A stretch of DNA of 64,000 nucleotides. Source: Acrasis kona. Its lineage: Eukaryota; Heterolobosea; Eutetramitea; Acrasida; Acrasidae. Within the stretch, counting starts at the first letter, position 1. Each line of letters starts with the position of its first letter. The position numbers and the translations under genes were made by a program. The stretch is taken from the NCBI GenBank assembly GCA_026419775.2, contig JAOPGA020000797.1, positions 186,001 through 250,000 of the forward strand, given 5' to 3'. The notes under the pieces were generated by a model. The model had not been told where the DNA came from. It made no database searches and worked only from the letters and a program-made list of their open reading frames with translations. Below, piece after piece: positions 22,424 through 50,185 of the stretch.

Positions 22424-22508
22424 GCCCGTCTAGCTCAGATCTTTGAGTATTCGGTAGAGCGCAAGACTCTTAATCTTGTGGTCGAGGGTTCGAGCCCCTC
22501 GGTGGGCG
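22424..22508 (+). tRNA. tRNA-Lys(CTT) with 12-nt D-loop insert
   Basis: Full cloverleaf: acceptor GCCCGTC/GGTGGGC (two G-T pairs), D stem GCTC/GAGC, anticodon stem CAAGA/TCTTG with loop CTCTTAA (anticodon CTT), T arm GAGGG-TTCGAGC-CCCTC, discriminator G. Length is 85 rather than 73 because ATCTTTGAGTAT sits in the D loop between AG and TCGGTA. The insert contains TGAGT, which can pair with the D-stem strand GCTCA. T runs for pol III stop follow within 10 nt. No intron at the usual 37/38 site. A second copy is at 50101..50185. Confidence 0.93.
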
Positions 22509-22654
22509 TAATTTTCTTTTTTACTCTAGCGAACTCCTTTAAGTACCCCATTTCATGTTGTAAGTTTTCCTTAGTTCTCCTTTTTTTTAAGCCATTCAAG
22601 ATTGATGTCAAGAACTAGTTCGCAAGCGAATTCACAATGGAAGAACATATCTCT

Positions 22655-23799
22655 GAGGGTTGGTCACAACCTTATTGGTTATGGTTAAATAAAATAGTTT
22701 TAATTAAATGAATGAGTTTTGGCTGTTCAAAATATTCCTGGCCGGTCGAAGGGTTTTTGGCCTTTAAAATAGTTATAGTTGGCCAAAATAGTTATAGCCG
22801 ACCAAACATGTTTTAGCCAAACAATCAAAGCAATAGTTTAAGATGGTTACTGATAGTCAAGCTCGCATACTTCTGGCTCATCATCAAAAGAACATAATAA
22901 AGCACCAGTGGGTGCCACTAAACCAAAAGCGGACTGTAGAGAAGACAAAGTTTAGTCGTACTACCGTTTGTGACATAGTCGAAATAAGGAAAACAAAAGA
23001 ACTTGTCTTCCAAAGATTTGGTTACATTGGGCCATTCTTGTTTCTAAATGAGTTCTTAGGTCTTTATAACTGGGGACTGCCATACAGTAATACAGAGAAA
23101 GGAATATTACTACTCTATGAGCTGTTGACAGGTGACAGTAACTCATATTTTATAACCCTTATAAAGTTGAACAGCCAGTAGTGATGATAGCCACGTCAAC
23201 GTTAACCAAGTCACTAACAGCAACGATTATAATAGTGACAATGAAGAAGATCATGACAAAGTCATCAATATCAACTATGATAACAATGTTAACAACGAAG
23301 ACATCAATAATAATATTGGGAATGACGATGACATGATCTCGAGTCCAAATCAAAATGTTGATAAAAGACTGAACTTTCAATCGCCTTCTTTAAATCAAGC
23401 TAGGTTCCGTTCACCTGTTCGTGTCATTCAAAAGGTTACAAAGAGAAGGTCAATGACATCTTTTTTGACAAAACAAAGCACCAAGTAAAAAAGAAAAAGC
23501 CATTTCACTCTCCATTATAGGCATGAACAAACAATCTCTTTTGCCATTTGATGTGTTAGTATTATAAAAGCTTGAACTATTAAAATAAACACTTGACCAT
23601 TGGTAATTTTCTTTAACTAAGGGTTTGATTATTTAATTAAAAGTTTTATGTCCAACCAGAGCTTTTTTAGCCAACTATAACTTTTTTGTCCAGTCAAAAT
23701 TACNTTGGTCAAACTTGGTTATCAGAGTCATGGCTGAACAGAAAGGTTATGTCCAAACAAAATGATCGTTAATAACTAGTTTGGTTATGACCAACCCTC
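22655..23799 (+). mobile_element. putative TIR-bounded DNA element
   Basis: Ends are GAGGGTTGGTCACAACC (22655..22671) and its inverse GGTTATGACCAACCCTC (23783..23799), matching 16 of 17. Just inside, both ends carry scattered copies of a TTAT(A/G)-x-CCAA-like motif, in opposite orientations at the two ends (AGTTATAGTTGGCC left; TTAGCCAACTATAACT right). TCT flanks both ends as a possible 3-nt target duplication. It encloses a spliced gene. No catalytic DDE domain is visible, so it may be non-autonomous. Confidence 0.5.
22843..23488 (+). CDS. unknown protein inside the TIR element, two exons
   Basis: Exon 1 (to 23131) and exon 2 (from 23175) join through a 43-nt intron and read about 200 residues. 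The N-terminal part has a possible helix-turn-helix (KFSRTTVCDIVEIRKTK) followed by an aromatic/Leu-rich stretch. Exon 2 is Asn/Asp-rich, then basic (FRSPVRVIQKVTKRRS). The second exon has no ATG of its own, so its open frame of about 100 codons supports the splice. DNA binding is a guess from the helix-turn-helix; no transposase catalytic residues are seen. Because of the flanking repeats it probably belongs to the element. Confidence 0.5.
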
Positions 23800-24100
23800 T
23801 CTGACGAGATATCATTTACAATTGGGATGCATTAAATCAGTCTTTAGAGAGTGGAAACTGCTATGTATTATAATAAAATAAATTTTAATCAATTGAATAT
23901 ATCTGTTCTGTACTTTTGAATATATTTATAGGTGATTTGCCTGTTTCTGTCTTCAATGGACTTTGTAATGATTTTTCTTGATTTTGTTGAACTCAACCTT
24001 TGGTCTGTTCCATAGAANGGNAGAAAAGTAGGAAGGAGAAAAGTATAAAAACGATATGTGAGCATCTGTATCTCAAAACAAACATTCAAAAAACAACAAT
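23800..24100. other. intergenic with ambiguous bases
   Basis: Right flank of the TIR element. Unresolved bases at 24018 and 24021 (and 23704 within the element) mark low-quality consensus. No gene recognised. Confidence 0.4.
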
Positions 24101-24317
24101 ATGAAATACACAGCAAGAACAGAATGGATTAAGAAACCAGCTGACCAGACCAAACAAATCAAGTCAAACATTGACCTTAATAATGTCGTGGCAGGAACAA
24201 GAAGGAGAAAGCGCGGACACTCTATTCAACGGAAAGGTGAACAAACCTGTACAAAGACTAAAAGGCAAAAGGCTTTCGAAGAACAGACTCGAAGCTAGAT
24301 TGAAAGCAACAATTTGA
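24101..24317 (+). CDS. small basic protein, probably nuclear
   Basis: The ATG opens MKYTARTEWIKKPADQ. Splicing a 28-nt GT-AG intron (24237..24264) gives 62 residues whose end, RKGKRLSKNRLEARLKATI, is helical and basic and flows naturally from GTRRRKRGHSIQ. The unspliced frame ends at 24298 with 65 residues and a less regular tail. An identical intron size occurs in the next gene. Strong positive charge suggests nucleic-acid binding. No family recognised. Confidence 0.5.
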
Positions 24318-24468
24318 GTTAACATTCAACAACTGTATCATAATAAATAATTAAAACAAAGGATTGATTGTAGCAATATAAATGTTTATTCTATTCTGAA
24401 GGATTGCGATTCCAATTTATGAGTCCGATGCTATCACGTCTTGATGTCTTCAGACGTTGTTGAGATGT

Positions 24469-24694
24469 TTAAAACTGTATAAAGGTTTGAAATTTCGTTG
24501 CGGAAGTTTTATTATCTTTGGATGTTTTTCTGCCTTTTAAAATTTTAGCTTGAATGTTCGGTGGGAATGTGCCCATTCTCTCTGGTATAGGATATTCGCG
24601 ACTGGTACTCTAGAAAGAATGAAAAATGTCTACTTACAGCATTAGAAATATTCACTGACAAGATGATCTGGATCGGAGCAGGGCGCCAACTCAT
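24469..24694 (-). CDS. 65-residue protein with a 28-nt intron
   Basis: Exons 24638..24694 and 24469..24609 flank a 28-nt intron (24610..24637: GTAAGT donor, TTTCTAG acceptor). The protein begins MSWRPAPIQIILSVNISNA and continues PIPERMGTFPPNIQAKILKGRKTSK, ending in TKFQTFIQF. Codons are used normally in both exons and the join is in phase. Divergent from the next gene with 25 nt between starts. Function unknown; no domain recognised. Confidence 0.55.
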
Positions 24695-24719
24695 CTGAGT
24701 GCTTGGTTGACGATAGAAA

Positions 24720-25301
24720 ATGAGCTCATCTAACAGTAATCAGCATACGAGCCCAGCTTCATCGAATGATGTGAAGATTCAGATAGACGAACAAAATGCA
24801 AATCAAGGAGAGATAAGAAGGGAGAGGTCCAAAAGTAAATACAAAGAGTACAAGCCAGTGACAACCAAGAGCGTCACTGACGACTTGAAATTCGCTCCAT
24901 ATGCCAGACACACCGCGACTGCTTGCATTTATCTATTAATAATTTGTGGAATCATCACTCTTTGTATGAAGACCAACATGCCCAACCTTGGTCCTGGAAT
25001 ATATTCGATACTCGTTGCGATTATAATTTACATTTACCAATTCTTTGGAGACTTTAACAAAGTTGACAAATCATCAGAAGGAATATTGGAAGACAAGGGC
25101 TGGAATCCCATTGTTTGTAAAATCCTTACTGTGCTCAATCACTATATTTTCGCATTTTTAGGAATGTTACTCCTGTCCGGCTATTTATTTTCATGCGTAC
25201 AAACAGCCATAGCCGGCGGTAGCATGGTCATTTCATCATTTTTGTATTTGATTGCTCTCATAAGAAGAGAAACACCACAACCAATCACTGGTATAATTTA
25301 A
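24720..25301 (+). CDS. p22phox (CYBA)-like membrane protein
   Basis: 193 residues: a 60-residue hydrophilic N-terminus with basic patches, then four hydrophobic segments (ACIYLLIICGIITLCM, IYSILVAIIIYIYQFF, FAFLGMLLLSGYLFSC, GGSMVISSFLYLIALI). The spacing and the final stretch SFLYLIALIRRETPQPI resemble p22phox, the partner that stabilises NADPH oxidase flavocytochrome. The match is in pattern and a few residues only, so a different four-helix protein is possible. Convergent with HIBADH (10 nt between stops). Confidence 0.5.
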   Translation: MSSSNSNQHTSPASSNDVKIQIDEQNANQGEIRRERSKSKYKEYKPVTTKSVTDDLKFAPYARHTATACIYLLIICGIITLCMKTNMPNLGPGIYSILVAIIIYIYQFFGDFNKVDKSSEGILEDKGWNPIVCKILTVLNHYIFAFLGMLLLSGYLFSCVQTAIAGGSMVISSFLYLIALIRRETPQPITGII

Positions 25302-25311
25302 TAAAATTATT

Positions 25312-26298
25312 TTATTTTGTGTCTGCCTTTATCTTAAAGTATTCTAAAACTCCACTAAAGTCCTTGTTCCCCATGTCATGTTCGTCCCTCATTTCGGTGT
25401 AGAATTTCGAAACCAATTCACCCAATGGTAAATCCATTTTTGCAGACTCTGCAGCTTTGATGGCCAAACCAACATCTTTCAACATTAGATTTGCTGCAAA
25501 ACCTCCTTCATAGTTTCTTGAGGATGGGACATTGTCCATCACACCAGGATGAGGGTTATATGTATCGCTGCTCCAACATCTACCGGAAGATGTGTTGAAG
25601 ACTTGTGCAAGTACTTTCGGGTCGATTCCCAAACGTGTTCCGAGGACCATTGCTTCGCTCACAGCGCTCATGCTGATGGCAAGCACCAAGTTGTTGCAGA
25701 TTTTGACGGATTGGCCATCTCCTACTTCTCCTCCACAATAAATAACATTTTTACCCATGAGTTGTAGTATGGGTTGTGCTCTTTCGAACGCTTGCTTTTT
25801 TCCACCCACCATGAAGGTTAGTGTAGCACCCGAGGCACCACCTACACCGCCACTTACAGGGGCATCCACCATGTCAATTTGATGTGACTTGAGGATCAGT
25901 TCGTTTACTCTCTTTGATGTGCCGGGATCTATGGTTGATGCATCTATCAGCAACTGCCCGTCGCGTATTTTGTTGACTGCGCTCTTGTAAACTGATTCGA
26001 CTTGATTTGGTCCAGGAAGCATTGTGATGACCACGTCACTTTGTTCGAAAACGTCGTTGGGCGAACTACATCCTTTGACTCTACCGTCTTGATGTTGCTC
26101 AACAAGGGTTGTCACCGTTTTCTCGTTCATATCAAATACAAACAGGTTCGAGTTGGATTTGTTGACCAAGTGAGGGGCCATTCTAGAACCCATATTACCA
26201 AGACCAATAAATCCAATCTTCTGACCATTGGTTGTAGAAATTAGTCTTCTAGATGTTACTATTGACAGGTATTTTGAGCGCAGACCTCTTGATATCAT
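25312..26298 (-). CDS. HIBADH: 3-hydroxyisobutyrate dehydrogenase, mitochondrial
   Basis: Oxidises 3-hydroxyisobutyrate to methylmalonate semialdehyde with NAD in valine breakdown. 328 residues: a basic presequence (MISRGLRSKYLSIVTSRRLIST), the dinucleotide motif GFIGLGNMGSRMAPHL, substrate loop DAPVSGGVGGASGATLTFMVGG, catalytic Lys in GQSVKICNNL, and the C-terminal KDVGLAIKAA. All family signatures are present and length is normal. Single exon. Confidence 0.96.
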   Translation of the reverse strand: MISRGLRSKYLSIVTSRRLISTTNGQKIGFIGLGNMGSRMAPHLVNKSNSNLFVFDMNEKTVTTLVEQHQDGRVKGCSSPNDVFEQSDVVITMLPGPNQVESVYKSAVNKIRDGQLLIDASTIDPGTSKRVNELILKSHQIDMVDAPVSGGVGGASGATLTFMVGGKKQAFERAQPILQLMGKNVIYCGGEVGDGQSVKICNNLVLAISMSAVSEAMVLGTRLGIDPKVLAQVFNTSSGRCWSSDTYNPHPGVMDNVPSSRNYEGGFAANLMLKDVGLAIKAAESAKMDLPLGELVSKFYTEMRDEHDMGNKDFSGVLEYFKIKADTK

Positions 26299-26801
26299 TT
26301 TGCTTTTGATTGAGTTGACCTTTGCGGATGTCCATTAGAGATAGGATAAGGATATACAAAAAAAGTGGATGAACAAAAGGTCTACTAAATGTCGGTGAAA
26401 AAGTGGAGCTTGCGTTCAGAAAGTAAATAGTAAAAATAAACGTTAATTTAATTTACTTATGGAGGAGAATTTTAGATCTATGATCCATTTTCTGCAGTCG
26501 CGTTCTTCATAAATGTAAACGTGCTATTTATGCTGACCAAATTATATTATATGGCGTGGTCGTTTATGTTCTCAAAGTAGATTTGTTGCACAGGTAAATT
26601 CTCTTAAAAAACACAATTAGGCCTAAGAGTGTACGAAAGGCTTGTTCAAATACTTGTTTTACGACAACATATCAGGACTTCTATTTCCTTATCGTTCACA
26701 TGCTCCTCTTGATTGAATTTTCTCCTGAAACAGAGTCTTACAATGATACTGATTTTATCTTACAATCACGGAATCAAAAAACAAAGCCATTCAAGTTCAG
26801 C
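26299..26801. other. intergenic, no gene recognised
   Basis: Between the starts of HIBADH (minus) and the MGRN1-like gene (plus). AT-rich; no convincing open frame or RNA gene. Presumably holds both promoters and the 5' UTRs. Confidence 0.4.
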
Positions 26802-28035
26802 ATGGGAATCACAGCTTCGTTGAGAAGGGACCCTCCCCAGACAGTCGATTTACCAAATAATACGGTACCACCTCAAAATTCAGAGGCATATTTTTTGATG
26901 TTTGGAGGTCCTCCAATTACAGGAACTCAATTTCTAGAGCAGAATGTATTTTATGTACAATCACAAAGAGTATGAAATTCTATATAAACTATCATCAATT
27001 TCTTCAGCATGTCCAGCAGCCGGTTATACCGCCTGAATTCAAGGAGACTGTCACAATACAGAATGATTTGAATCTTTTGAAGAGGTCTTTAAAAATCACA
27101 CCAACAGACCAAAGCAAATATACCCTCGAATTTGAATTCGACTCGAGGGTTCCCTGCGATGTATTTGTACATTTAATCGCAAAAGAGTTCAAAGATAAAT
27201 CAACAAAACGGAACACGTACTTGTACTTTACTTCATGTACTAACTAAATAATAGATTCAAGTCAGCGTTGTCTTTTAAAAAGAAGTTCTACGAGGCAGCA
27301 TCAGGAAATACCTACAAAGAAACAAACATTGATTTGTCCCCATATAGTGCGATGCAGTTGACCATGGAATCACCAGAATCCTTCGAGTGTCCTCTTGTAG
27401 TGGAGCTACGTTCTAACGAAAACTGTCAAATCACATACGCACAGTTTGTTCAGTCAGGTGCTGTTTACGGTATAAAATTCATCAAACAAAAAATCATAAT
27501 TAATGGTCAAACGTTTGAGCTGGCAGACATTTACGGCTTCGATCAGCAGGAAGATCATCACGACCCATCGGAAAAACCAAAATCACCCGCCGACATGGTT
27601 ATGAACATTGAGGACGTTGACCCTGACGATTCTAAATGCGTCATTTGCATAACGGACCAGGCGGACACTGCAGTCCTTCCTTGCAGACACATGTGCATGT
27701 GTCACGGATGTGCAAAGATTCTTCGGTTACAAACAAACAAGTGTCCAATATGTAGAACGCAGATAGATAATTTGATCGTACTCGAAGGAATAGAGCCTGT
27801 TGAGGTTCAAGAGGAGCCAAGTCAACCACAAGTGGACAAAAATAAAGAAACACAAGAAGATCAAGAGGACATCACAGACAGTCAAGGTGAAGATGAGCGG
27901 AATGAAGATGAAGTAGAGCAAACCGACAAAAAGAAGAAGAAGAAGAGCAAGACTAGAAAGAACAAAGCGGAAGAGAAAGAACCACTAGTTGAGGATGCGA
28001 ACACATCATCGTCGTCAATTACGCAAGAAATGTAA
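26802..28035 (+). CDS. MGRN1/LOG2-type RING E3 ubiquitin ligase, N-myristoylated
   Basis: Three exons (introns 26970..27007 and 27217..27254, 38 nt each). Starts MGITASLRR, matching the N-myristoylation rule MGxxxS/T, as in animal MGRN1 and plant LOG2. A beta-rich DAR2-like domain follows (RSLKITPTDQSKYTLEFEFD..VPCDVFVHLIAKEF) with IKFIKQKIIINGQTFELADIYGF, then a RING-HC C3HC4 (CVICITDQADTAVLPCRHMCMCHGC, CPICRTQIDNLIVLEG). The tail is acidic, then Lys-rich, low complexity. It should attach ubiquitin to membrane or endosomal substrates. The ATG at 26802 is chosen for the myristoylation signal. Confidence 0.92.
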
Positions 28036-28039
28036 TTTA

Positions 28040-28716
28040 TTAAATTGAAATAAAGTCGTCACCGATATTTCCTATACTAGTCGATGTGTGAACCATTCTT
28101 CTTTCTTCTTTGCCGTGTATCTTCTTGAATAGTTCCTTCGTTGACTTTAATTGCAGTGTAATGTGCACAGCTGAGTTGTATCTAACTTGTGTTAACACTT
28201 CACCCACCTATGTCGTTCAGTGTATTAAAGAGTGCATTCTTACGCCATCTTTTGGAATAAAATCATCAACCAGTTTAACTGTGTCAGTCCTTGTGTGTAA
28301 TGTCAAGTTAAAGTCTCTTTGAAGTTGAAGGGACAAGTCAATTGCAATTAGTATAGCGGATCCCAACGCATGTATGATACAAATTCCGTCATATCTGTTG
28401 CATTAATAAATGTTTTGATTGATAACACACAATACAATTCGTGGTTAAATATTTTTTTTGCTCTTGCATATACCGCAGTTAGTTTTGATTTTCTTGATAT
28501 GTATATTTCGTTTGCTTTTGCCTTCTTTTTATTCGAGGGTGTCCTCTTCCTCATTGCATCTTGATAATTTATTAACATGTGCTAGTCAAGCTTACAAGTA
28601 TCTGGGCAAGGAAATGGTTTTATAATAGTGCTTTCCTGTACAAAATAAACTTCGTCTTCACTCTCTTCACTCTCATCATCACTAACATCCACCTTCCTTC
28701 TCTTGGCATCCATCAT
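28040..28716 (-). CDS. POP7: POP7/Rpp20-like RNase P/MRP subunit, four exons
   Basis: Introns 28560..28595, 28395..28435 and 28208..28243 (36-41 nt) are needed to read it; about 187 residues. The core has the family run ANEIYISRKSKLTAVYARAKK, IHALGSAILIAIDLSLQLQ, TDTVKLVDDFIPKDG and RYNSAVHITLQL, matching human Rpp20 (NDIYV..K, IHGLGLAINRAINIALQLQ, STVELVDELEP, RNNSAIHIRV). It would act with Rpp25/Pop6 on the P3 stem of RNase P and MRP RNA. The N-terminus is acidic and extra. Its stop lies 4 nt from that of the convergent E3 ligase gene. Confidence 0.88.
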
Positions 28717-28939
28717 TACAATTTCGTTACAACAGAAGAAGTTATATTGACCTCAAGGAACACATAGGTAATAGGTTCTTATTTATAATTATATAGTTTT
28801 GTAGAAAAATTCTATGCAGTAGTATGTACTGTAATATACAACAGAGCTCGTTTATTACTAGTTATTGACATATATAGACTTGTAATCGATAAACAGTCCA
28901 GTCAATTATCGTCAACCAACTAAAAGCACCCAATGTCAC

Positions 28940-30063
28940 ATGGAGACCACAAGTACTATAGAGAATATAACTACCAACGTCTCTACACAAGCACTCATAC
29001 TCACACCATACTCTGCACTACCAACGGTAATATTAATAAGGTAATCCAAGAACAAACAAGGTTTTCTCATCATTTTACAGTAACATTGCGAGTCTTTTCG
29101 GAGCACTTTATATTTTAATACATATTGGGATTATATATTTCAAAGTACCCGAAAAACATAGGGTCTTTTCTAAACACCATCACACCCTTTCCATGTATTG
29201 CGTCTCGTGCATCATAACATGTTCTGTCCTAGTAATATTTTCTACGCTCGACACCAAGAATCCAGAAAATTTACGTTTATGCATAGCACAGGGTGCCTTG
29301 CAAACTCTTTTAAATATGTTTGTTAACTTTTGGTCCACCATGTTTATTCTCAATGTTTTGATACAAATTATTCTGAGTTGGGGGTCTTGGGGTGGAGAAA
29401 AAGTAGACGCAATATTAGTTCTTATTTACCACGTTGTTTCATGGGGCACGCCTGTGGTTCTTATGACCATACTTCTGACACGTCCTGGAGTCATTGCCTA
29501 TAGTGGGGTAAGTTGCTTTATTCTCTTTGTTCTTTATTCATAAACAGGGATGGTGCTGGATCTCCAAAGACTATCCGGAATTACGCTTTGGTTTATTTTA
29601 TGGGTGGGCCATTGCTGGTTTCCTACTTCAGTTCCTGTCTCTAATATTAATTGTGGTAATTCTAATTATCTATTCCAGAAAAACGAATCAAGATCGTAGA
29701 GGTTTGACGTCAAAGTTATCAGGAAGGGTCTTGTTGTACAATTTAGTGTTTTTGTTATGTTGGGTGTTTGGGATTGTGTTGAGATTTATACAAATTGTTG
29801 ATAAGAATTTTGATAATGCTGGGTTGGTTTATACCCACACTATTTTGTCGTTGAGTTGTTGCTTTTGGGTGGCGTTAGCTTTTATTTATTGTGAGAATGT
29901 GCTTACTTTGTATTATATGTTTTTTAAGAAATGTGTGTCTGATGTCAGAAGGAGGAGAATGCATAAGATGATTGAGAATGATAGGGCTGAGCTGGTGCAA
30001 GGATTGAGAAAAAGTGATGCTCTTGACGACGAACTATCTAATGATTATGAACCCTCGGATTAG
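28940..30063 (+). CDS. cAMP-receptor-like (class E) seven-helix GPCR
   Basis: Three exons, introns 29041..29080 and 29508..29547 (40 nt each), give 347 residues. The N-terminus (METTSTIENITTNVS) has two N-glycosylation sites, then seven hydrophobic helices. The second extracellular loop and TM5 carry GWCWI..ELRFGLFYGWAIAG, the mark of slime-mould cAR/Crl receptors. The cytosolic tail is basic then acidic with Ser. The start at 28940 is chosen because a different ATG eight bases upstream reads out of frame at the splice. The ligand is unknown; cAMP is only suggested by family. Confidence 0.85.
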
Positions 30064-31851: not shown

Positions 31852-32123
31852 TAACAAACAGTTACAAATAGTATGTAATCTTGTAAAGGTGAATATATCT
31901 CTATTTTGATTGTACAGAAATAAAAACAAATTAATATAAAGCACATGGTAATATGTTCTAGTCTTCTATAATTGTTTCAGTTTTTATATTGGACAGTTTC
32001 AGGATGGAAGTTGTTTCAGTTTTTGTTGTTCCGCATTTGTACCCGCATTCCAATTTGACCTAGAGAAGAGCGAGAAGATAAAAAGGTGTATCATTCTAAC
32101 ATGAAGCATATGATAATAAAACA

Positions 32124-34067: not shown

Positions 34068-34231
34068 TCATGTACAAATAAATTCTGTTTTGATCAAGTT
34101 TGTTTTTTGTAAATGAGTCAACCTGCTCAACAAACATTGAAACACAGGTCATCAAGCAATCTTTATCATGAGATACAAATAGAACGAATGGATTTAACAA
34201 TTTGATCAATAAACAACAACTTGAAAAAGTT

Positions 34232-36075: not shown

Positions 36076-36375
36076 GGCGAAATACTCCAAACGTTTTCTG
36101 ATTTCATCACATCAAACATTCGTCAGTGGATGGAGTTTGGTTTGTACCGTCCATAAGGCAATTCAGTTGCTGAATGTACAGTGGTCTGATTGTGAAGTTA
36201 CTCTTGTCTTGTACTTTTTGTCCGCATGAATTAATACCTCCTTCACCTCTCTTCTGTCAAGTGTTTGCTCAGTAACGGTGGTATTGAACTGGTAGATAGG
36301 AGTTGAATCAGTTACTGATTGCCTGATAAATCAATCTTTACAACATACTATCAACATATTGATATAAATATCAAA

Positions 36376-38387
36376 ATGATAAGGCTGTCATTATTTTTGA
36401 TCTTATATTTGTGCCATGCCTATCCCTCACATGAGCACAAAGTTTATATATCGACCCAAGGCGATGATTATTTATCAGGTTCAACAACAAAGGAAGCTGT
36501 TCGATCTTTCGAGAGGGTGCAACAAATAGTAAGGGGGATAGCGTTGGGGATAAAGAACAACCTGAGGATAAAAAAACCAATAGTGGTAAATCTGTTACCT
36601 GGCACATACATCATAGATAAGACAATTCAACTAGACGCACAAGTTTCAGGAATAGTGCCCATAACCTACAAAAAAAGCGATAACTTCACGGAACCCGCAG
36701 TCATAACAAGTTGTATACCAATCACATCAAAATGGGTTGCCGATGAGTCTGATCCAAATCTATTCTACACAATCATCGATCAAGTACTATCAAAAAAAGT
36801 CCAGTTCAACTCATTTTTTGTTAATGGAGAACGAAGAACAAGAGCAAGATCAAAAGAATTACAATACTCCAATTCAAATTCCTCTGATTCATTCTTTTAT
36901 CAAGACGACGACATCAAGATGTTTGATAACATACAAGATGCCAACATTATAGTATTCAACAGGTACGCTCGCACATTTCACGCTCTCATTACATTCCATA
37001 GTTGGACAGCATCAAGGCACTGGGTACAATTAGTAGACACTAGACAAAAACTCATAAAATTCACCAACCCAGCAAGAAATCCATTCAATCAATTCGAAGC
37101 ATTTTCAAACAAGACCTATTACATTGAAAACGTAATTGAACATTTGGATGAACCCGGAGGTACGCATCTTCGCTATAATCACCACTCACACATTTCACAC
37201 AGAATGGTACCTCAATCGAAAAACAGGAAAATTATCCTATTATCCATTACCGGGAGAAACGCTCGAACCATTCACGTGCTGCTATCCATCGCTCGACACT
37301 CTGCTATCGCTTCGGTCCAACCACACCCATCCAATCACCCACACATCATTCAAAAAACATCACATTCGCACACACCGATTGGCACTTTGAAAAGAATCAA
37401 ACCATAGACGACCAAGCAGCAGTCTATTTAAACTATGCACCCATCGTAATGGAGCACTGCAATCACATCACATTCCAATCCGTTCGCATCTACGGCAGCG
37501 GATCCTATGGATTGCACCTAATGGATGGGTGCACCAACGTATCCATCCACAAATCCACCATCACCGACATGGCCGGCGGTGGCATACGCATAGGATCACC
37601 GTACACCAGTCAATACCCCAATCAACACATTACGCTGAGCAATAATTACATTGGCAATGGCGGCATGGTGTTTGCGGAGGGATGTGGTATCATACTGCAA
37701 CGCTGTCACCACAACACCATCAAGAACAATGTGATCGATGGAATGAGATATACTGGTATATCGGTGGGGTGGTCGTGGGGTTATCATGAGCAAGATGGTG
37801 CCTATCATAATCTGGTACACAACAACACCATACGTAATGTCGGCATGCATTATTTGAGTGACTTGGGTGGCATTTATACGTTGGGTTGTAGCAACGGTAC
37901 TGTTCTATCCAACAATGACATTGTTAACGTGACGGCTCGGTTTGACGAATATAGTTGGGGCATTTATAACGATGAAGGTACCAGCAACATGTTGGTCCGT
38001 GATAATCGCGTGCATTGTACGGGTGGTGCAGGGTTTTTTACGCATTATGGCATGAACAATGTGATCAGGAATAATGTGTTTGGCGATTCGATGGCGTTGG
38101 ATGGTGCTGTGGCGTTTGCAAAGATGGAATCGCACGTTACTTTTGTGTTTGAGCATGATGTGGTGAAGCATTGTAGCCGAACGAGGCCGTTGATTCATCA
38201 GATTTTTAGTGTGGAAATGTTTTATGACGTGAAGAAGCATATGGTGTTTAGGAAAAATAGATATGAGGTGTGTGTGGGAGCAAATACTAATGTGGAGTTG
38301 GTTGTTGATGGATATCAAAATGTTACGTTTGAGCAGTGGAGGTTGTTCCTTGAAGAGGATGAAGGTAGCGTGCTTATTGTAAAATAA
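36376..38387 (+). CDS. secreted right-handed beta-helix protein, one frameshift
   Basis: Signal peptide (MIRLSLFLILYLCHAYPS), then a start typical of bacterial parallel beta-helix proteins (VYISTQGDDYLSGSTT, PIVVNLLPGTYIIDKTIQL, VITSCIPI). Intron 37160..37202 (43 nt) restores the frame. The frame then breaks at a run of six A (37352..37357): reading five A instead gives FKNITFAHTDW-type sequence that joins the 312-codon downstream frame. That part holds beta-helix turns (HITFQSVRIYGSG, NVSIHKSTITDMAGGGIRIG, NHITLSNNYIGNGG, NTIKNNVIDG). Either an assembly slip or a young pseudogene. Substrate unknown, probably polysaccharide. Confidence 0.75.
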
Positions 38388-40646: not shown

Positions 40647-40728
40647 TGTCCGTATTATTAGTGTCTGTGCTTTCACTTATTAAACCAAAATTGTAAAGAT
40701 AAAAATTTTTATACGGTTGACTGCATAA

Positions 40729-41751: not shown

Positions 41752-41774
41752 ACATTTAACAATACAAAAATTTA

Positions 41775-42559: not shown

Positions 42560-42771
42560 AGTGTTAAATGTGATAATTGAAGTTGACGAAGATTGTTTAC
42601 AAGTTTTCAAATTTAAAGTGGTTGTCACTTCACATCAACATGATTCGAAAACACATGAAACGACCCATATTGATACTAGAGGTAGACATTCATTTTGATT
42701 AATTATATATCATTTTTGTAATATTTGTAGAACTTACAATATTTTGTTGCCGCTTGAAATAACTACAACAA

Positions 42772-43905
42772 ATGTTCGGATACACGGATGTTCATAAGAA
42801 AGAGCAGGTTGCAATTGAAAGAAGACGAGCTGCTGAGGAGGAAAGAAAGAATCGTATTTTCAATCCAAAGGTGCGAGTAATTGGTGTGGACAAACAAGCT
42901 CTAGATGCACAAGTGGAAGAGAAGAAGTTATTAAAGCAGATGGAAGACGAAAGAGATCGTTTCTATGATGAGCAAACCATAATTAGCTCTCAACATGGTC
43001 AATTCCTAGAATCCAAAATGCAAGATGTGAGACGTGAAGTTCAAAAAACCGTTAGTGAATACAGACAAACCCAACAAGCAAATGAACTGAGGAGGGAGTT
43101 TGATTTAAATGATAAGGATGCACTTAAAAAAGAGCTCCCAGTCAGAGTGGGCGATAGAGACCCACGTTTAGGTATATCTGCTGCACAAGTTTTTAATGGA
43201 GAGGACCTGGGGAACAGAGAAAGATCACGTGCACAAAAAGAACAAATGAAATCTTGGATAGAACAAAATATCTCCGAAAAAGATCATCAAAAAGCGTTGG
43301 AGGAGTATGAAAAACTAATGTACGAAAAAAGAACAGAGGAGGTAAACTTCCTGGCCAATGAAATAGAAAAACAAAAAGAGCTATTGCGACTTGAAAAGCT
43401 AAGAGCAAATAAAGAGTACAACTTGGAGCAACTTGTGGAAAAAAGAAATAGAGAGGCCGAACAAAAGATGCGAGACGAGATTGATAAGTTAGAGGAAATA
43501 CAAAACCAACTCAACAGCGATTTATTGAACGAGAACTTCCACAGCACCCTACATGCAACAGACGGCAATAGATTTAAACCATATAATTTCAAATCTCTCA
43601 GGCCAGAGCAGTACCAGGAGATCCATGAAGTTAGAGAACAACAAATTCTCGAAAAAGAATACAACAAGGCCAAACAAAAAATGGAGGACGAAATGCAACA
43701 TGTTAACGACAGAATTAATGACCGGATGGCAAATAGGTTGAAAAGAGAACAGGAAAGACTGAAGCAAGAGAAGGAGAAGCAATTGGCAGAAATTCACAAG
43801 AAACAAATGGAGCAGAACAAAGCGAAAAAGAACCATATCCAAGATTTATATGCCAATGAAGTCACCGAAGATTTCTTTTCGCAGTTCGGAACTAGTTCAA
43901 GATAA
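42772..43905 (+). CDS. RIB43A/RIBC2-like doublet microtubule protein
   Basis: 377 residues, almost entirely coiled coil. Family features: ERRRAAEEERKNRIFNPKVRVIGVD near the start, DPRLGISAAQVFNGEDL in the middle and a C-terminal FSQFGTSSR. RIB43A proteins sit inside the A-tubule of flagellar doublets as inner-junction-near filaments. Presence implies that the organism has, or recently had, flagella. Single exon, length as in relatives. Confidence 0.93.
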   Translation: MFGYTDVHKKEQVAIERRRAAEEERKNRIFNPKVRVIGVDKQALDAQVEEKKLLKQMEDERDRFYDEQTIISSQHGQFLESKMQDVRREVQKTVSEYRQTQQANELRREFDLNDKDALKKELPVRVGDRDPRLGISAAQVFNGEDLGNRERSRAQKEQMKSWIEQNISEKDHQKALEEYEKLMYEKRTEEVNFLANEIEKQKELLRLEKLRANKEYNLEQLVEKRNREAEQKMRDEIDKLEEIQNQLNSDLLNENFHSTLHATDGNRFKPYNFKSLRPEQYQEIHEVREQQILEKEYNKAKQKMEDEMQHVNDRINDRMANRLKREQERLKQEKEKQLAEIHKKQMEQNKAKKNHIQDLYANEVTEDFFSQFGTSSR

Positions 43906-44040
43906 AAGTGTTGATTATAAATTTTAAGTTGTATTACGTATATATATATCTTAGATCGCAAGTGAAATGAAAATAATTACTTTCCAAAATTTCTGCGTCC
44001 GGGTAGACAGACGGATTGCTTCGTGCCGAAGTAATTCTTT

Positions 44041-44813
44041 TTACTTTTGCAAACTGTGCATTAGAGATGTGAAACTAGGGAGTTGTCTTTGTTCGTCATT
44101 ATATGTTCCCGAGGGCGAGTCTGTGCTGCGTTGAGTAACTTGGCTTCTATCCATAACGATATTTTGTGTAGGGCTTAAATGATAAGGGTGGGCACTGGCT
44201 CTCGGAATCATTGAGCGTCTGTTAATATTCTGAGGATGTGGTTGGTTGTAAGCTGGAGCACCGTATGGCTCTTGTATGTGAATATATTGTTGTGGCCGAG
44301 GCGAGAGTGTGGAGTGCTTTGACTCTACAATAGGAGAAAATGAATTCGCCCATGGTGTGCATGTTTTAGATGTGTCGCAAACATCTGGGGAACTTGTGGG
44401 AGAGCGAGATGCCGGAGACCAGTTAGGGCTATTGCTGTGCGGTGATGATGTATTGTTGTCGTGAACAGTTCTTGAGTCAAAAAAGACTTCTGGTTTTGTT
44501 TTGATTTGATGGACCTCTAAATCCACCTGCTGTATCTGATACCTCACATCATCATACCCCGGTGAGTCTGCATTCATTTCTTTTAACTGTTGGCTCAGCT
44601 TGTCCTTTTTTATGTACAAACTTTTTAGTTTACGATAGGGCCATCTAGACATCAGGTTATACAAAAATATAATGCATCCATGGCGCACCTTTGTACATTA
44701 AACTCTCGGCAAAGTTTCTTCATGGATGTTGAGCTTAACTTGATTTGATTACAGGCGTCCTCGAGCCTCATATCAAAGTAGGAGCTAAGTTCATCGAACG
44801 TGATAGTCGTCAT
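44041..44813 (-). CDS. RWP-RK domain transcription factor
   Basis: Two exons joined by intron 44645..44688 (44 nt) inside the motif: ITFDELSSYFDMRLEDACNQIKLSSTSMKKLCREFNVQR followed by RWPYRKLKSL. This is the RWP-RK signature (RWPxRK) with its helix-turn-helix and Leu-zipper-like extension (LYIKKDKLSQQLKE). About 242 residues; the rest is Ser/Pro/Gln-rich and disordered. RWP-RK factors bind DNA and control nitrogen response and gamete fate in plants and algae; role here unknown. Confidence 0.9.
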
Positions 44814-45540
44814 TCTTTGTTGGTGGATGCTTGTTACTTACTTACGGAGACGAAACCAAATAATTAGTTTCTCGATGAGATACACGGACCGAAATGGAAT
44901 TGGCACCGTCTGAACATCAGAAATCGTACAAAAAAATCCACATGTGGCTTCTTTTAGAAATACACCCTTAAGGAAAAAACATCCGAAGCGTAAATCTTAG
45001 GTTGATATGGATTTGATTCCTTTCTTACCACGGACAACAGAAAGAAGCAGTTAAAAAAGGTCGAGTTACTTTCGTTTTTCTAACAAATGTAATCGATATT
45101 TGAAATCATTTTATCTTTATCTTCACAATTTGTCCTCGAGGGAGTAATCTTTTTCTGAAAATGGTGAAATAATAAACGTTAAGAAAAACGATCCGGATAG
45201 ATGTCACAATAACCGTATAAGTTCGTGATGTGTTAGTCTTTTTAAGCGCTTTATCCACCATTTGTTAGAATTCCCATTCTATTTGTACAGCAGATATGGA
45301 GGACAGTGAAAATACCTTTTAATTTTTTCGCCATTTCAATATTATACCTTTTCATTTTCGCCTATATGGATCACAGCAGGTGCAACTCCGGTATTTGTAA
45401 CAAATCTGAAGGTGGAGGTTGAATACATTGGAAGAGGGCATGTAGGAAGAACAGCAATCATCTTATTACGATAGTTAGAAGTACCCTCAGCAATGTCTAT
45501 AGACCACTTTTTTCACGACCAACCCAAATTACTACTCTAG
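44814..45540. other. intergenic, possible decayed sequence
   Basis: Separates the RWP-RK start from the broken methyltransferase-like gene. Short open stretches but nothing recognisable. The part next to 45540 may be the ruined front of the pseudogene. Confidence 0.35.
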
Positions 45541-46526
45541 ATGTTTTGGACAGAGCTCTACTTGACCGAACGTTTTGATGATTGGATTCACATCCAAGGC
45601 TTGGCCTTATTTTTCCATGTGCGACCAAAAAGCAATCACCATGGTCATCTGCATCCACAACTGCAATCTCTAGTCACCCAACAACCTATGCTGGAGCGGT
45701 TTGATTTTTATGGTACCTCATTAACCATCACTCAAGAATTGTGCAGTTTTATTCGAGACAAGCAAGTATCCATCACTCTTCAGGAATACCTTCAAGACCT
45801 CTTGAAAAAATATGGCCATCATCTGGTTTGCACATTACACTTTTACATTAGGAGCGGAATGATCACATTTCCGTACAAGAGGTTTAACATTTCTGATGCT
45901 GATCTAAATCGGAAGGAAGAGATTGTGAGTAATTATCGTATACCACACATAGAGTTCATCAACAGCAATAAACCACTATTTTCCAAAGGGTTAGAGGGCC
46001 AACCGTTACTACACATTTCCACCTCTGAAGATTATGAGATTGATATATCATCCTAGTGTTTCAACGAGCAATATGCCACAATCAATGAAGACTTTGGTAT
46101 GGTTTTTACCAGCCCACCTTTCTTCGATTTGGAGAGATACACTGATGCGAAGGGCTAATCGACAATTATCCATCCTTGGACGAGTGGTTGGTTGAATTTT
46201 TGTTCGTGAGTCTAGAAAAGAGTTGGAAGAATCTTGTCATAGGTGGTTACATCGCCATCCACATTGCAGACAGTAGAAGCGTCAATATATGCGAGCCAAT
46301 GTGCTTGTTCATCCAAAGCATATTGTTATGCGCTAGATACTGCGGCATTTAGGGTCCTCATCAAGAGATGCATCAAATGTTGTGCGAGCCAAGTGCTGAT
46401 ATAATCACGCTCGCCAATGGGCGTCTCAAATCATACCACAACGTGTTCGACTTGGTCTGCAAGCGATTCAAATCAAAGACACCGCACTGGTATCGAGCAG
46501 TAACAAGAGGAAGAAGTATTCTCTGA
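45541..46526 (+). pseudogene. broken DNA methyltransferase-like gene
   Basis: An initial 171-codon frame stops at TAG 46054..46056, continues in the same frame with EDFGMVFTSPPFFDLERYT, then breaks at TAA 46156..46158 and resumes in another frame from 46155 with YPSLDEWLVEFLF, SWKNLVIGGYIAIHIAD. A further TAG at 46350..46352 interrupts it before the frame ends at 46524. SPPF is motif IV of N6-adenine/N4-cytosine methyltransferases, and EWL..FL..SW..L..GGY resembles a protein class common in large DNA viruses and bacteria. None of the breaks fits a GT-AG intron. Former enzyme; transfer from a virus or bacterium is only a possibility. Confidence 0.6.
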
Positions 46527-46668
46527 CAGGAAACACTTTCGATCGAACGAAGATTGTTTTTCGAGGTTCTAAAAAATGTTCTTTGATTCATTGGGATATT
46601 CATTTTGAAGTTGAGTCAACCAATAACGATGAATTATTGATAAAATAATAATTCATTTTGAATAAATT

Positions 46669-47706
46669 ATGACAGATTCCATAGTTGTCTTGAATGTTGT
46701 GAACAAAAGTCAGGAAATGTTCATCATAGACTATAAGAATATTTTATTGTTATTGATATTGGTATTAGCTGTTGTGATGTTAGTATATTTGTTGGGAGTG
46801 TCAAACACAATTAATTTAATGGTTTCGTCAGTTTTCGTTATCGCAGGGTCGGTATATACATGGGTCAAACATCGTGAAATTGTTAACTCAAGCTTCAATC
46901 TATCTCGTTATTCTGCTGGAGCCTTTGCATTTTCGAAGATTAGCTTCAGAATACATTACGTCTTCAAGAAAATTAACAGCAACAACAATATTTTGTTCTG
47001 GCGCGAGACCGATTATGATAAATATTACTACACAAATAACTGTGAGGAGAGAGAGACTGTTAATGTTATAACACGTACCTGTAACATTAATTCTTCTAGG
47101 GATACCTCCGTTGATAGGTACTTTGAGTTGTATTTCGCTTCCAAAATCATTGGAGAGTCGCTTATTGAGGCTCACAATCTTATTGAGAAGGGATACCATA
47201 CAGAGGGTTTAGAAAGAAACGGATATTTAATCCACCTCTGCTTAGATTCGTACTTCACAGAGACGAACAAGATCAGCACATTTTTCAAAGAAGAAGTTGA
47301 TCCAGAGTTTGACTCTTTGAAACCTGATATTTGTTTGAAGGTAAAAGAATTAGCAAGTGCTCAGAATTATAATATCCTAATGGAAATTTACAACGGGGAT
47401 TCTGATGCTCGAGTTAAAGAAAAATTGGTCAAATACAATGGACTAAGGGAATATATAAAAGACTTGCATGTAATTGTTATTTCAACAAAACCTGTTAGAG
47501 AATCATTCAGCCAGATTGTAAGATACAACATTACCTGGACAAACGAACAAAATTTACCCGAGGATGTTTTAGTAGGTATTGGTTTAGATAGACAAAACCT
47601 GGAAGTAATTTCACAACAAGCGGTTGCATTTCTATCTGAATTACAATATTGGCATTCGTGTCTCCATGCTAAAAAGATTATCAAAACACACAGAAGGTAC
47701 ATTTGA
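46669..47706 (+). CDS. membrane protein with PD-(D/E)XK-like C-terminal domain
   Basis: 345 residues with two hydrophobic helices near the start (NILLLLILVLAVVMLVYLLGV and LMVSSVFVIAGSVYTW). The C-terminal half contains LKPDICLKVKE, then LMEIYNGDSDARVKEKLVKYNGL and a beta strand HVIVIST, which is the PD..E-x..K pattern and helix of PD-(D/E)XK endonuclease-fold proteins. The second acidic residue is followed by Ile rather than x-Lys, so activity is uncertain. No closer family recognised. Confidence 0.65.
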   Translation: MTDSIVVLNVVNKSQEMFIIDYKNILLLLILVLAVVMLVYLLGVSNTINLMVSSVFVIAGSVYTWVKHREIVNSSFNLSRYSAGAFAFSKISFRIHYVFKKINSNNNILFWRETDYDKYYYTNNCEERETVNVITRTCNINSSRDTSVDRYFELYFASKIIGESLIEAHNLIEKGYHTEGLERNGYLIHLCLDSYFTETNKISTFFKEEVDPEFDSLKPDICLKVKELASAQNYNILMEIYNGDSDARVKEKLVKYNGLREYIKDLHVIVISTKPVRESFSQIVRYNITWTNEQNLPEDVLVGIGLDRQNLEVISQQAVAFLSELQYWHSCLHAKKIIKTHRRYI

Positions 47707-48290
47707 ACAATTTTTAAAGTAATATCCCAATAAAAAAACCTTATAACAATCACTTGAAATTTTTGATAAGAATTGATATTCTTCTTAAATCTAGCCTTCA
47801 TTTGTTGTATTCCAGCACATCTTTTGATATCCCCTGATCCATGAATCGGTATTTTTACTCCATAGATAGCTTAATAGACTCTTCTCTGCTAGTGTCCGAA
47901 GTGTTTTGTTGCCTGTGCTAGATGAGCAGCGTAATCAGTTGCCCTGTTAGTGTTTTGATTACCCGAAGAGGGAGTTGCCGCCCGTTGTGTGATCAATTAC
48001 TGTTTAACATTTGTACCCATGTTGTTTTAATCTTGTCAACTCAAAGTATGAGAAAGCATTCAAACAGTAATACAAAACTCAAAATTGGGTTTTGGATGTC
48101 GTTGAACAATCACCAAACGAGTTATTTGTTTAATAAACATTGATTTGATAGAATACTTTTTAATAAAAACCTGTTTGCTCAAATTGAATTATATGATTCA
48201 TGTGATGGTTACATTGTTTACAACGAGTTTTTTCCTTGTCAACCATTAATAGTGGCGGCACATATCATTCCGTTAAAATAAAACGTTCAA
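47707..48290. other. intergenic, one coding-like stretch on minus
   Basis: A 35-codon minus-strand frame at 47889..47996 (ending ATDYAAHLAQATKHFGH, stop TAG at 47889..47891) has regular codon composition but no start codon or clear upstream exon. Not called as a gene. Nothing else recognised. Confidence 0.35.
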
Positions 48291-48710
48291 ATGGAACCAC
48301 TGTTGGCCACTCCAATACACAAAGGCACTATTACACCACAATCATGCTATTCAGATATAACACAAAGTACAGTAAGAATGGGAACACACGGATGTATCAC
48401 TTGTATATCAAGAGATGGGCATGATAGCGGCTCATATCCTTTAAATTTATTTGAAAGGTCTTGTACGTTTGGTAGAAACCCAACATCATGCATTGTAATA
48501 AAAAGAGATTCAACATCAAGAGACCACGCAAAAATCATTCTAGATGCAGACGTTGTGAGTTTAGTACACCTAAGTAAAACAGGTGTTACCATCATTCATG
48601 GTGAGACTTCTGACGCAGAAAGGCTTGACGCGTATGGAGCACAGGTCGAATTATTTGACGCTGATGTAATAGAGATTGATTCAAGACTTTTTAGATTTGA
48701 TGGTAAGTGA
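48291..48710 (+). CDS. FHA-domain protein, 3' end lost at ambiguous bases
   Basis: The frame reads about 139 residues. The FHA domain is near complete: FERSCTFGRNPTSCIVI, DSTSRDHAKIIL (Ser and His of the phosphothreonine pocket), VELFDADVIEIDSRLFRF. FHA domains bind phosphothreonine. The frame runs into GGTAAGTGA: a donor site for a following exon that is unresolved because of Ns from 48755. The rest of the protein is unknown. Confidence 0.75.
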   Translation: MEPLLATPIHKGTITPQSCYSDITQSTVRMGTHGCITCISRDGHDSGSYPLNLFERSCTFGRNPTSCIVIKRDSTSRDHAKIILDADVVSLVHLSKTGVTIIHGETSDAERLDAYGAQVELFDADVIEIDSRLFRFDGK

Positions 48711-48787
48711 CCAACACTTCTTCTTTAATAACAAAAACATTAGCAATATCACAANNTTCNCANGAAGACGANCATNNACTGTTGNAT
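48711..48787. other. low-quality junction with ambiguous bases
   Basis: N at 48755, 48756, 48760, 48763, 48772, 48776, 48777 and 48785. An FHA frame lies on the left and the middle of an oxidoreductase on the right, with neither's missing part between. Suggests a collapsed or wrongly joined assembly region. Confidence 0.6.
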
Positions 48788-49696
48788 ACCAATCCCAAAG
48801 ACTGGAAGCTTCACGATACATTATTCATACAAGGCCGCGATCTAATCGAAGGAAACGACGTGGCCGGCAATGTACATTCCGTGGGTGATGGAGTTACTAA
48901 ATTCAAGGTTGGAGATCGAGTAGCAGGATTTTCCAAAATGTTCACTGAAGACAAGTACGGTGCATACGCAGAGTACACTGTTGTTCCAGAACACACAACA
49001 TTCCATGTAAAAGAAAATGTAAAAATTGAAGATGCCGCCACCATTGGATTAGCTGGTATGACTGCTGCATTAGGTTTATTTACCGAATCTAAACTCGGAT
49101 TACCGACGCCTGAGAACCCAAACACTGGCGACAGGGCAGTGTTTATTAATGGCGCTAGTTCATCTGTCGGAAGCTTTGCAGTTCAGTTAGCAAAGAAAGC
49201 AGGCCTCTTTGTTATCGGAACCGCAGGATCTAGCATTAAAGTTGCGAAGGATGCTGGTGCGGATGTGGTCATTGACTACCGGGGTAAAAGTACCGACGAT
49301 CTTGTGAATCTAATCAAGGACGCTGCAAAAGGCAAAACTTTGGAGCACTCATATGATGCAATCAGTGAACGTGAATCCTTCTCATTGAGTTGCTACGTTC
49401 TACCTCCCCAGACTACGTCTAAAGCCACGTTTGTGTTACCCATCCCTAAAGATTTGGATTCAAAGGGAGTGACCACCACACAGACCAATGTTGGTACGGC
49501 TCACTCTGTAGATGCAGAATTTGCTGAGAGGTATTATACTCTTATTGCAGATTGGATGAATGAAGGTAGCTTCAAAGGAAATAATGTGAAGATAGTGCCT
49601 CAAGGTCTGAATGGAGTCCATTCTGGATTAGAATTATTAAAGAATAATTCAGTGAATGGCGAGAAATTGGTCTACAAGATATCGGATACCCTATAA
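48788..49696 (+). CDS. zinc-type MDR oxidoreductase, 5' part missing
   Basis: Begins inside the gene at NPKDWK and continues through GNDVAGNVHSVGDGVTKFKVGDRVAGF, NADP motif VFINGASSSVGSFAVQLAKKAG, and ends after VHSGLELLKNNSVNGEKLVYKI. It belongs to the medium-chain dehydrogenase/quinone-reductase group, near fungal trans-enoyl reductases; no structural zinc cluster is visible. The first ~35 residues expected of the family are absent because of the ambiguous junction. Confidence 0.8.
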   Translation, partial: TNPKDWKLHDTLFIQGRDLIEGNDVAGNVHSVGDGVTKFKVGDRVAGFSKMFTEDKYGAYAEYTVVPEHTTFHVKENVKIEDAATIGLAGMTAALGLFTESKLGLPTPENPNTGDRAVFINGASSSVGSFAVQLAKKAGLFVIGTAGSSIKVAKDAGADVVIDYRGKSTDDLVNLIKDAAKGKTLEHSYDAISERESFSLSCYVLPPQTTSKATFVLPIPKDLDSKGVTTTQTNVGTAHSVDAEFAERYYTLIADWMNEGSFKGNNVKIVPQGLNGVHSGLELLKNNSVNGEKLVYKISDTL

Positions 49697-49811
49697 TTGT
49701 GAAGAAAATTTTTTAATAAAATGTTACCTTAATCTTACACCTGTGTGATGAATCTAATGTAATGATAATGGTGGGAGACCCTGCTCAGTGCGTTCTTTTT
49801 ACTTTTTCAAC

Positions 49812-50024
49812 ATGGACGGTCCACAGAAAGGTTTTCTACTTTGTAATAATAAAACTCAACCAAACACTGGCAAATTCTTGAAGAGGACTTTGAGCGGTGA
49901 ACAAAACAATGAAGCAGGCAACAAGAGATTTCAAATCAAAATAGATGACGAACAAAAAAACGATAGCAAAAGAATTATTGTAGAAGATTGTGTCTTTTCA
50001 GTCATACAACTAGACGATAGTTAG
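49812..50024 (+). CDS. 70-residue hypothetical protein
   Basis: ATG at 49812 starts MDGPQKGFLLCNN, followed by a Lys/Asn-rich body and an acidic, Val/Ile-containing end (IVEDCVFSVIQLDDS). Upstream codons (to 49788) are aromatic and unlike coding sequence. No domain recognised. Confidence 0.45.
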   Translation: MDGPQKGFLLCNNKTQPNTGKFLKRTLSGEQNNEAGNKRFQIKIDDEQKNDSKRIIVEDCVFSVIQLDDS

Positions 50025-50100
50025 TTAGTCAAGATAATTCTATAAAATTAAACCACAAGTTAGTAGAAATAACGGATATGTTATTCGAAAATCTAAAACT

Positions 50101-50185
50101 CGCCCACCGAGGGGCTCGAACCCTCGACCACAAGATTAAGAGTCTTGCGCTCTACCGAATACTCAAAAATCTGAGCTAGACGGGC
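50101..50185 (-). tRNA. tRNA-Lys(CTT) with 12-nt D-loop insert, second copy
   Basis: Identical to the copy at 22424..22508 at every position except one, and that difference is inside the D-loop insert (ATTTTTGAGTAT versus ATCTTTGAGTAT). Same length (85), same anticodon CTT, same acceptor, T arm and discriminator. Downstream on this strand TTTT occurs at short distance, fitting pol III termination. Confidence 0.93.

Follow-up and report, generated by a model that had tools for sequence, protein, structure and literature searches.

Introduction

In eukaryotes, transfer RNA (tRNA) introns at non-canonical positions have been described in a red alga and in nucleomorphs, the relict nuclei of algae (here and below, the cited papers are represented by excerpts). 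In the red alga Cyanidioschyzon merolae, introns occur in over 62% of tRNA genes (PMC9602550), and one tRNA-Ile gene carries introns in its D, anticodon and T arms; the nucleomorph of Guillardia theta has nine genes with introns of 3–24 nucleotides (nt) at non-canonical positions, the excision of which was confirmed by reverse-transcription polymerase chain reaction (PMC4090602). A paper on tRNA annotation limits eukaryotic tRNA genes to one intron and describes a search for non-canonical introns for archaea (PMC8450103). Here we report on a stretch of 64,000 nt from the heterolobosean amoeba Acrasis kona (assembly GCA_026419775.2, contig JAOPGA020000797.1, positions 186,001 to 250,000 of the forward strand), referred to below as the window, which holds two tRNA-Lys(CTT) genes with a 12-nt insert in the D loop. 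An initial annotation of this DNA had favored reading the insert as an intron and pointed to D-loop introns in Cyanidioschyzon and some archaea, which is in line with PMC9602550 and PMC4090602. Comparing gene sequences across the genome, we conclude that such D-arm inserts are very probably non-canonical nuclear tRNA introns.

No report of tRNA introns in Acrasis, Naegleria or other Heterolobosea was listed in searches of the open-licence PMC literature. As excerpted, the Acrasis genome paper (PMC11589745) mentions ‘tRNA’ twice, both times for tRNA synthetases, and neither a paper on Willaertia and N. clarki nor two Naegleria papers mention tRNA introns; of the two Naegleria papers, one has no mention of tRNA and the other gives mitochondrial and bacterial tRNA counts only.

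The Two tRNA-Lys(CTT) Genes of the Window

Each of the two genes is 85 nt long, corresponding to a 73-nt cloverleaf with 12 nt placed between G15 and T16, and is followed on its 3′ side by a run of T. The initial description of both as regular tRNA genes apart from an insert in the D loop was borne out, and the sole difference between the copies is indeed a C/T change inside the insert (ATCTTTGAGTAT in copy 1 versus ATTTTTGAGTAT in copy 2). The inserts lie in the D arm, at 15/16, and not at the canonical tRNA intron site, 37/38. ARAGORN in bacterial mode named copy 1 ‘tRNA-Asn(att)’ and missed copy 2, and the RF00005 profile matched copy 1 only, at 32.1 bits (cut-off 29), leaving the insert unaligned. 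The parts of the two genes are as follows:

22424..22508, plus strand: tRNA-Lys(CTT) gene, copy 1, with D-arm insert (from sequence reading and the RF00005 match)
22424..22438, plus strand: copy 1, exon 1, positions 1–15 (boundary from the comparison of 34 Lys genes)
22433..22436, plus strand: copy 1, GCTC, 5′ strand of the proposed central helix of four base pairs and also 5′ strand of the D stem
22439..22450, plus strand: copy 1, proposed intron ATCTTTGAGTAT
22445..22448, plus strand: copy 1, GAGT, 3′ strand of the proposed central helix
22451..22508, plus strand: copy 1, exon 2, positions 16–73
22487..22497, plus strand: copy 1, B box GGTTCGAGCCC
50101..50185, minus strand: tRNA-Lys(CTT) gene, copy 2, with D-arm insert
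50171..50185, minus strand: copy 2, exon 1
50173..50176, minus strand: copy 2, GCTC, 5′ strand of the proposed central helix
50161..50164, minus strand: copy 2, GAGT, 3′ strand of the proposed central helix
50159..50170, minus strand: copy 2, proposed intron ATTTTTGAGTAT
50101..50158, minus strand: copy 2, exon 2, positions 16–73

D-Arm Inserts in the Acrasis Genome

Genome-wide searches covered a 37.35-megabase (Mb) assembly of Acrasis kona in 1021 contigs; because the genome is given as 44.02 megabase pairs (Mbp) in PMC11589745, the assembly searched is incomplete. The Lys D-arm pattern, AGCTCAG...TCGGTAGAGC with a gap of 0–30, occurred at 34 places, with an insert of 10–14 nt in all of them and of zero in none, compared with 0 places in the control, and with this recurrence the Lys D-arm insert cannot be put down to chance. 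The sole exact uninterrupted GCTCAGTCGGTAGAGCG in the genome belonged to a tRNA-Asn. A pattern for the Lys anticodon arm, which would miss genes whose anticodon arm has changed or that lie in the part of the genome absent from the assembly, found 41 places (29 CTT and 12 TTT; control 0), including all 34 places of the D-arm pattern. In 36 of these 41 genes the D-arm insert lay at 15/16 and in five, all TTT, at 20/21, so that the Lys-TTT genes divide into seven interrupted at 15/16 and five at 20/21. One Lys gene (C742:25264, locus L169) has the 15/16 insert and lacks the GTA of the D loop.

Several side observations concern these sequences. On contig C849 (L183), two tRNA-Lys genes with different putative introns stand in opposite orientation, their D arms about 540 bases apart. 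The putative intron TATTTGAAAT is identical at 20/21 in three Lys-TTT genes (L151, L164 and L175) and in one Ile-AAT gene (L110), which could reflect the spread of an intron by gene conversion between D arms. Looking for relatives elsewhere, we found the pattern GAGTATTCGGTAGAGCG in 11 stretches of the genome_contigs set and in one of the viral_contigs set, none of them tRNA-like.

A Lys-only feature was ruled out by the presence of D-arm inserts in many isotypes. A B-box pattern, GGTTCGANNCC, occurred at 402 places (control 94), and the first 100 of these were surveyed (82 sequences fetched, 17 covered by earlier searches and 1 not fetched). The initial annotation had left the frequency of such inserts to a genome-wide count; by pattern searches, it came to 41 of 41 Lys genes and, in the B-box sample, which covers only genes carrying that pattern, to 47 of 68 tRNA genes. 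The 47 comprised 43 fetched genes and 4 Lys genes, and the 21 intact genes comprised 9 that were fetched and 12 from the RF00005 search (three only as full-length RF00005 matches), while the remaining 32 of the 100 places were not tRNAs or were not resolved. RF00005 itself gave 63 matches in the genome, compared with roughly 300 B-box places above the control. A further pattern, GGTTCRAAYCCC, occurred at 50 places versus 2 in the control, probably marking some 40 further tRNA genes; four of the 50 had already been read (L072, L084, L013 and L118), and two of these are not tRNAs.

Interrupted genes were of 15 anticodon types, namely Lys-CTT, Lys-TTT, Pro-TGG, Arg-TCT, Arg-TCG, Arg-CCT, Asp, Gly-TCC, Asn, Ile-AAT, Glu-TTC, Glu-CTC, Ser-TGA, Tyr and Val-AAC, with the inserts of Arg-CCT and Val-AAC assigned by eye only. 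Found only intact were Met-CAT (8 genes), Trp (4), Gln-TTG (3), His (2), Pro-CGG (2) and Arg-ACG, Leu-AAG, Thr-TGT and Gly-CCC (1 each), many of these genes coming from the RF00005 search, which is biased toward intact genes. The insert sits at 15/16 in Lys and Pro-TGG, at 17/18 in Arg-TCT and at about 20/21 in Asp, Asn, Ile, Gly-TCC, Glu, Arg-TCG, Ser-TGA, Tyr and some Lys-TTT genes, and is 10–14 nt long in 74 of 77 genes. In tRNA-Tyr and tRNA-Val genes (L071, L114, L132, L086 and L095), a second apparent intron at 37/38 accompanies that of the D arm.

Insert Removal and Intact Paralogs

When the insert was removed, 14 of 23 genes of seven types gave the exact sequence of an intact paralog, with 0 mismatches over 71–81 nt (Pro-TGG 2/6, Arg-TCT 2/5, Arg-TCG 2/2, Asp 2/2, Asn 2/4, Glu-TTC 3/3 and Ser-TGA 1/1). 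The other nine differed from the paralog by 1–3 bases, none of them at the insert site. Truly intact comparison genes numbered 18; a nineteenth counted as ‘intact’, Lys L169, is the insert-bearing gene without GTA. For Pro, Arg-TCT, Arg-TCG, Asp and Asn, the class boundaries were fixed by intact paralogs, without recourse to complementarity.

ARAGORN, with introns of up to 40 nt allowed, assigned the correct isotype to 5 of 77 unspliced genes versus 77 of 77 after insert removal, each then giving a normal cloverleaf of the same isotype; applied with introns to whole loci, the program made too many false calls for use. Among 39 spliced Lys sequences, 26 CTT genes shared one sequence, 11 TTT genes shared another and 2 CTT genes varied. 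The spliced 73-nt body was thus identical in all 11 Lys-TTT genes left after merging identical contexts, across both insert sites.

Complementarity between Exon and Insert

In bulge–helix–bulge (BHB) cleavage, the cut falls after the second nucleotide of each 3-nt bulge. In the Acrasis genes, a run of four exon bases ending two before the 5′ junction is complementary to four bases of the insert that end two before the 3′ junction. If each 3-nt bulge is built from both exon and intron, two exon bases and one intron base on one side and two intron bases and one exon base on the other, a BHB cut would free exactly the insert. The helices are GCUC:GAGU/C in Lys, GUCU:AGAU/C in Pro, UCAG:CUGA in Arg-TCT, AGUG:CACU in Asp and Gly and GUUG:CAAC/U in Tyr, and in Glu-CTC and Ser GUGG faces UCAC, CCAU or CUGC.

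To score this complementarity, we used 13 classes with 56 distinct class–insert pairs from 77 genes, identical contexts being merged; Arg-CCT (3 genes, mature D loop uncertain), Val-AAC (3 genes, one without its 5′ part) and Lys L169 (1 gene) were left out of the counts. Over a grid of 30 offset pairs, the peak fell at exon 2/intron 2, with 3.67 of 4 pairs averaged over the 13 classes, which on sequence sets the predicted cut behind the second base of a 3-nt bulge at either splice site; offsets 1/3 and 3/1, in the same register, gave 3.33 and 2.93. All four pairs of the central helix were present in 40 of the 56 class–insert pairs and at least three in 55, compared with 6 and 134, respectively, of 633 combinations in a control with exons of another helix strand. 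When the eight helix strands were permuted, the true assignment alone of 40,320 reached 3.73 (next best 3.61, mean 2.16), and none of 2000 letter shuffles reached the observed helix score. Mimicry of the D stem as a general cause of the conserved GAG was ruled out, because the strand complementary to the insert is something other than the D stem in the 17/18 and 20/21 classes.

The initial annotation had also pointed out a possible pairing of GCTCA with TGAGT in the insert that would compete with the D stem. Free folding agreed with this, since over 21 distinct unspliced Lys 15/16 RNAs the probability of the helix averaged 0.92, against 0.00 for the D stem; on this folding model, a Lys 15/16 RNA must lose its D stem before splicing. 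The helix was likewise favored in Glu-CTC (0.95), Tyr (0.91), Gly (0.85) and Arg-TCT (0.83) was lower in Asp (0.69), Asn (0.63), Arg-TCG (0.52) and Pro (0.45), and was scarcely predicted in Ile (0.19). Free folding is a weak guide either way, because a number of spliced tRNAs were also given a low D-stem probability (Lys 0.24, Asp 0.05 and Asn 0.04).

Processing Enzymes and Transcription Signals

Genes for both the endonuclease and the ligase that a BHB-type intron calls for were found. Sen34 (L142) and Sen2 (L143) contain the PF01974 domain, and their top matches in PDB bear those names; aligned His and Lys residues in the two Acrasis proteins are what we take to be the catalytic residues. 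The N-terminal domain of Sen54 was detected in the genome, and RtcB genes lie on two contigs. Sen15 gave a sub-threshold match only in the 37.35-Mb assembly; the protein is short and divergent, so its absence does not follow. The same three subunits, Sen2, Sen34 and Sen54, were detected in C. merolae, again without Sen15, and it has been proposed that this is linked to the non-canonical introns there (PMC4090602).

That the insert splits the A box, as noted initially, is true of 15/16 inserts and also of the 17/18 class. TTTT was present within 25 nt of the 3′ end in 77 of 77 interrupted genes checked and in all 18 intact genes. A compensating upstream TATA for split-A-box genes was considered and dropped, there being no clear difference between groups: TATA-like words at −45 to −16 occurred in 16 of 33 split-A-box genes, in none of the 6 genes with sufficient flanking sequence in the 20/21 or 20a class and in 7 of 15 of the ‘intact’ set, one of whose 19 members is Lys L169. 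By eye, no A box rebuilt inside the insert was matched.

Three further features of the window were noted. A BRO1-domain protein encoded there matches an Acrasis kona protein named VPS31 with 99% identity along the full query. The stretch at 14753–14781, CTCGGTAGAGTATAGGTTCAATTCCTACC, resembles the end of a D arm plus a T arm, with no tRNA recognized around it, and could be a degenerate or rearranged tRNA or a chance likeness. At 36319–38387, one gene apparently extends over two overlapping open reading frames (36319–37407 and 37179–38387), through an intron or a sequencing slip.

Discussion

The intron reading first advanced for the window draws support from three kinds of sequence comparison: the paralogs without insert, the spread of inserts through the genome and the helix between exon and intron. 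From these we infer that the inserts are excised. In the mechanism we propose, RNA polymerase III would transcribe the whole interrupted gene, and the 3′ part of the intron would pair with the exon, GCUC:GAGU replacing the D stem in Lys. The Sen2/Sen34 endonuclease would cut at AG|A...AU|U, RtcB would join the tRNA halves, and the freed GCUC would then pair with GAGC at 22–25 to give the normal D arm.

Several observations weigh against this account. Asn, Lys 20/21, Ile and Glu-TTC have only 2–3 of the 4 pairs, with a mismatch at G15 in 4 of 4 distinct inserts of Asn, 3 of 3 of Lys 20/21 and 4 of 5 of Ile, and at the inner pair in 3 of 3 distinct inserts of Glu-TTC, a class that retains 3 of 4. 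The free-fold helix probability was near zero in Glu-TTC (0.00), Ser-TGA (0.01) and Lys 20/21 (0.06). The strict hBHBh′ structure, with outer and inner helices, is not formed: inserts of this length leave no room for the inner one, and the D stem is not available as the outer one where the insert lies at 15/16. The folds of Glu-CTC and Tyr, with D stem, 3′ bulge (AA|A) and helix, correspond to a relaxed hBH; the BHB motif is described in PMC4090602, and relaxed forms are counted within the family (PMC4090602, PMC3978253). In yeast, the D arm is the presumed contact of Sen54 (PMC4090602, PMC3978253), and the proposed introns disturb this very arm. No intact copy of Lys, Gly-TCC, Ile, Glu-CTC or Tyr was among the genes examined, and their boundaries were placed by analogy; in some classes the boundary can slide by one base, and the complementarity had been noticed before the class boundaries were set.

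Excision by a nuclease other than the Sen endonuclease, following a rule of its own, seems unlikely to us. It would suit the lack of a strict hBHBh′ structure, and eukaryotic tRNA introns are mostly at 37/38 (PMC4090602), but the observed offsets fit the BHB rule, genes for Sen2, Sen34, Sen54 and RtcB are present, and C. merolae removes D-arm introns, with BHB motifs thought to direct its splicing endonuclease (PMC9602550, PMC4090602). The kept long D loop, which the initial annotation had allowed for, is made unlikely by the comparative evidence. The mature tRNAs would then have D loops of about 18–22 nt, with the T-loop contacts to GG 18–19 still formed. D-loop length is somewhat tolerant in known tRNAs, and 5 of 77 uncut genes were still read as the correct isotype by ARAGORN; retention is nevertheless hard to square with intact paralogs of the same mature sequence, with one Lys-TTT body interrupted at two different sites, with isotype-specific complementarity at a fixed spacing and with the predicted loss of the D stem in uncut Lys 15/16 RNA. 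Hardly credible is the view that the interrupted copies are pseudogenes or assembly artefacts and the uninterrupted genes the functional ones: short D- or T-arm insertions in eukaryotes are mostly in one of many copies and taken as pseudogenes (PMC4090602), damaged copies do occur (Lys C742:25264 without GTA, Lys L032 without a T-stem base and the Val-like L135 without its 5′ part), and intact Lys copies could be missing from a 37.35-Mb assembly of a genome published as 44.02 Mb (PMC11589745), but with 41 of 41 Lys genes found interrupted none would be functional, the gene bodies are otherwise near-identical and retain TTTT close to the 3′ end in all 77, and the same feature on many contigs with differing inserts speaks against assembly error.

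Taking the inserts as excised introns, we offer a wider and more speculative picture, which we put forward tentatively and would not yet expect to hold in full. Acrasis, and perhaps all Heterolobosea, may have an archaea-like tRNA splicing in which most nuclear tRNA genes need removal of a D-arm intron and lysine decoding depends on it wholly. Introns may move or be regained between D-arm sites, as the 15/16 and 20/21 inserts in the same Lys-TTT body and the identical TATTTGAAAT in Lys and Ile might indicate; a Sen complex without Sen15 may read mainly the local helix, and RNA polymerase III may start on genes with a split A box.

If D-arm introns are indeed removed in Acrasis, archaea-like substrate choice would be far wider among eukaryotes, reaching a free-living amoeba of the Discoba. 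Standard annotation could then miss or misname many tRNA genes in such genomes (ARAGORN was correct for 5 of 77), and the matched interrupted and empty genes would be material for studies of intron gain and of Sen specificity.

Acrasis resembles C. merolae, with its non-canonical and permuted nuclear tRNA introns, in having apparent D-arm introns in nuclear tRNA genes with BHB-like junctions (PMC9602550) and in that Sen2, Sen34 and Sen54 were detected and Sen15 was not (PMC4090602). It differs in being a heterolobosean amoeba in which the inserts read cluster at three D-arm sites; the genes that carry them are multicopy, and for several an uninterrupted paralog exists. With the Guillardia nucleomorph it would share very short introns at non-canonical positions; there, however, the setting is a relict algal nucleus with nine genes, whereas Acrasis is a free-living amoeba with dozens of such genes and a clear helix rule. 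Archaea (Thermoproteales and others) likewise have BHB or relaxed BHB motifs at many tRNA positions and very similar introns across isotypes (PMC4090602, PMC8450103), but the hosts and the endonucleases are archaeal. Compared with canonical eukaryotic introns at 37/38, the same endonuclease and ligase families would be expected to act, and Acrasis Tyr and Val genes appear to carry such an intron; the inserts described here, in contrast, lie in the D arm and not in the anticodon loop. Together, these comparisons suggest a known splicing logic in a new and distant non-photosynthetic lineage, focused on the D arm and found in the majority of the genes sampled.

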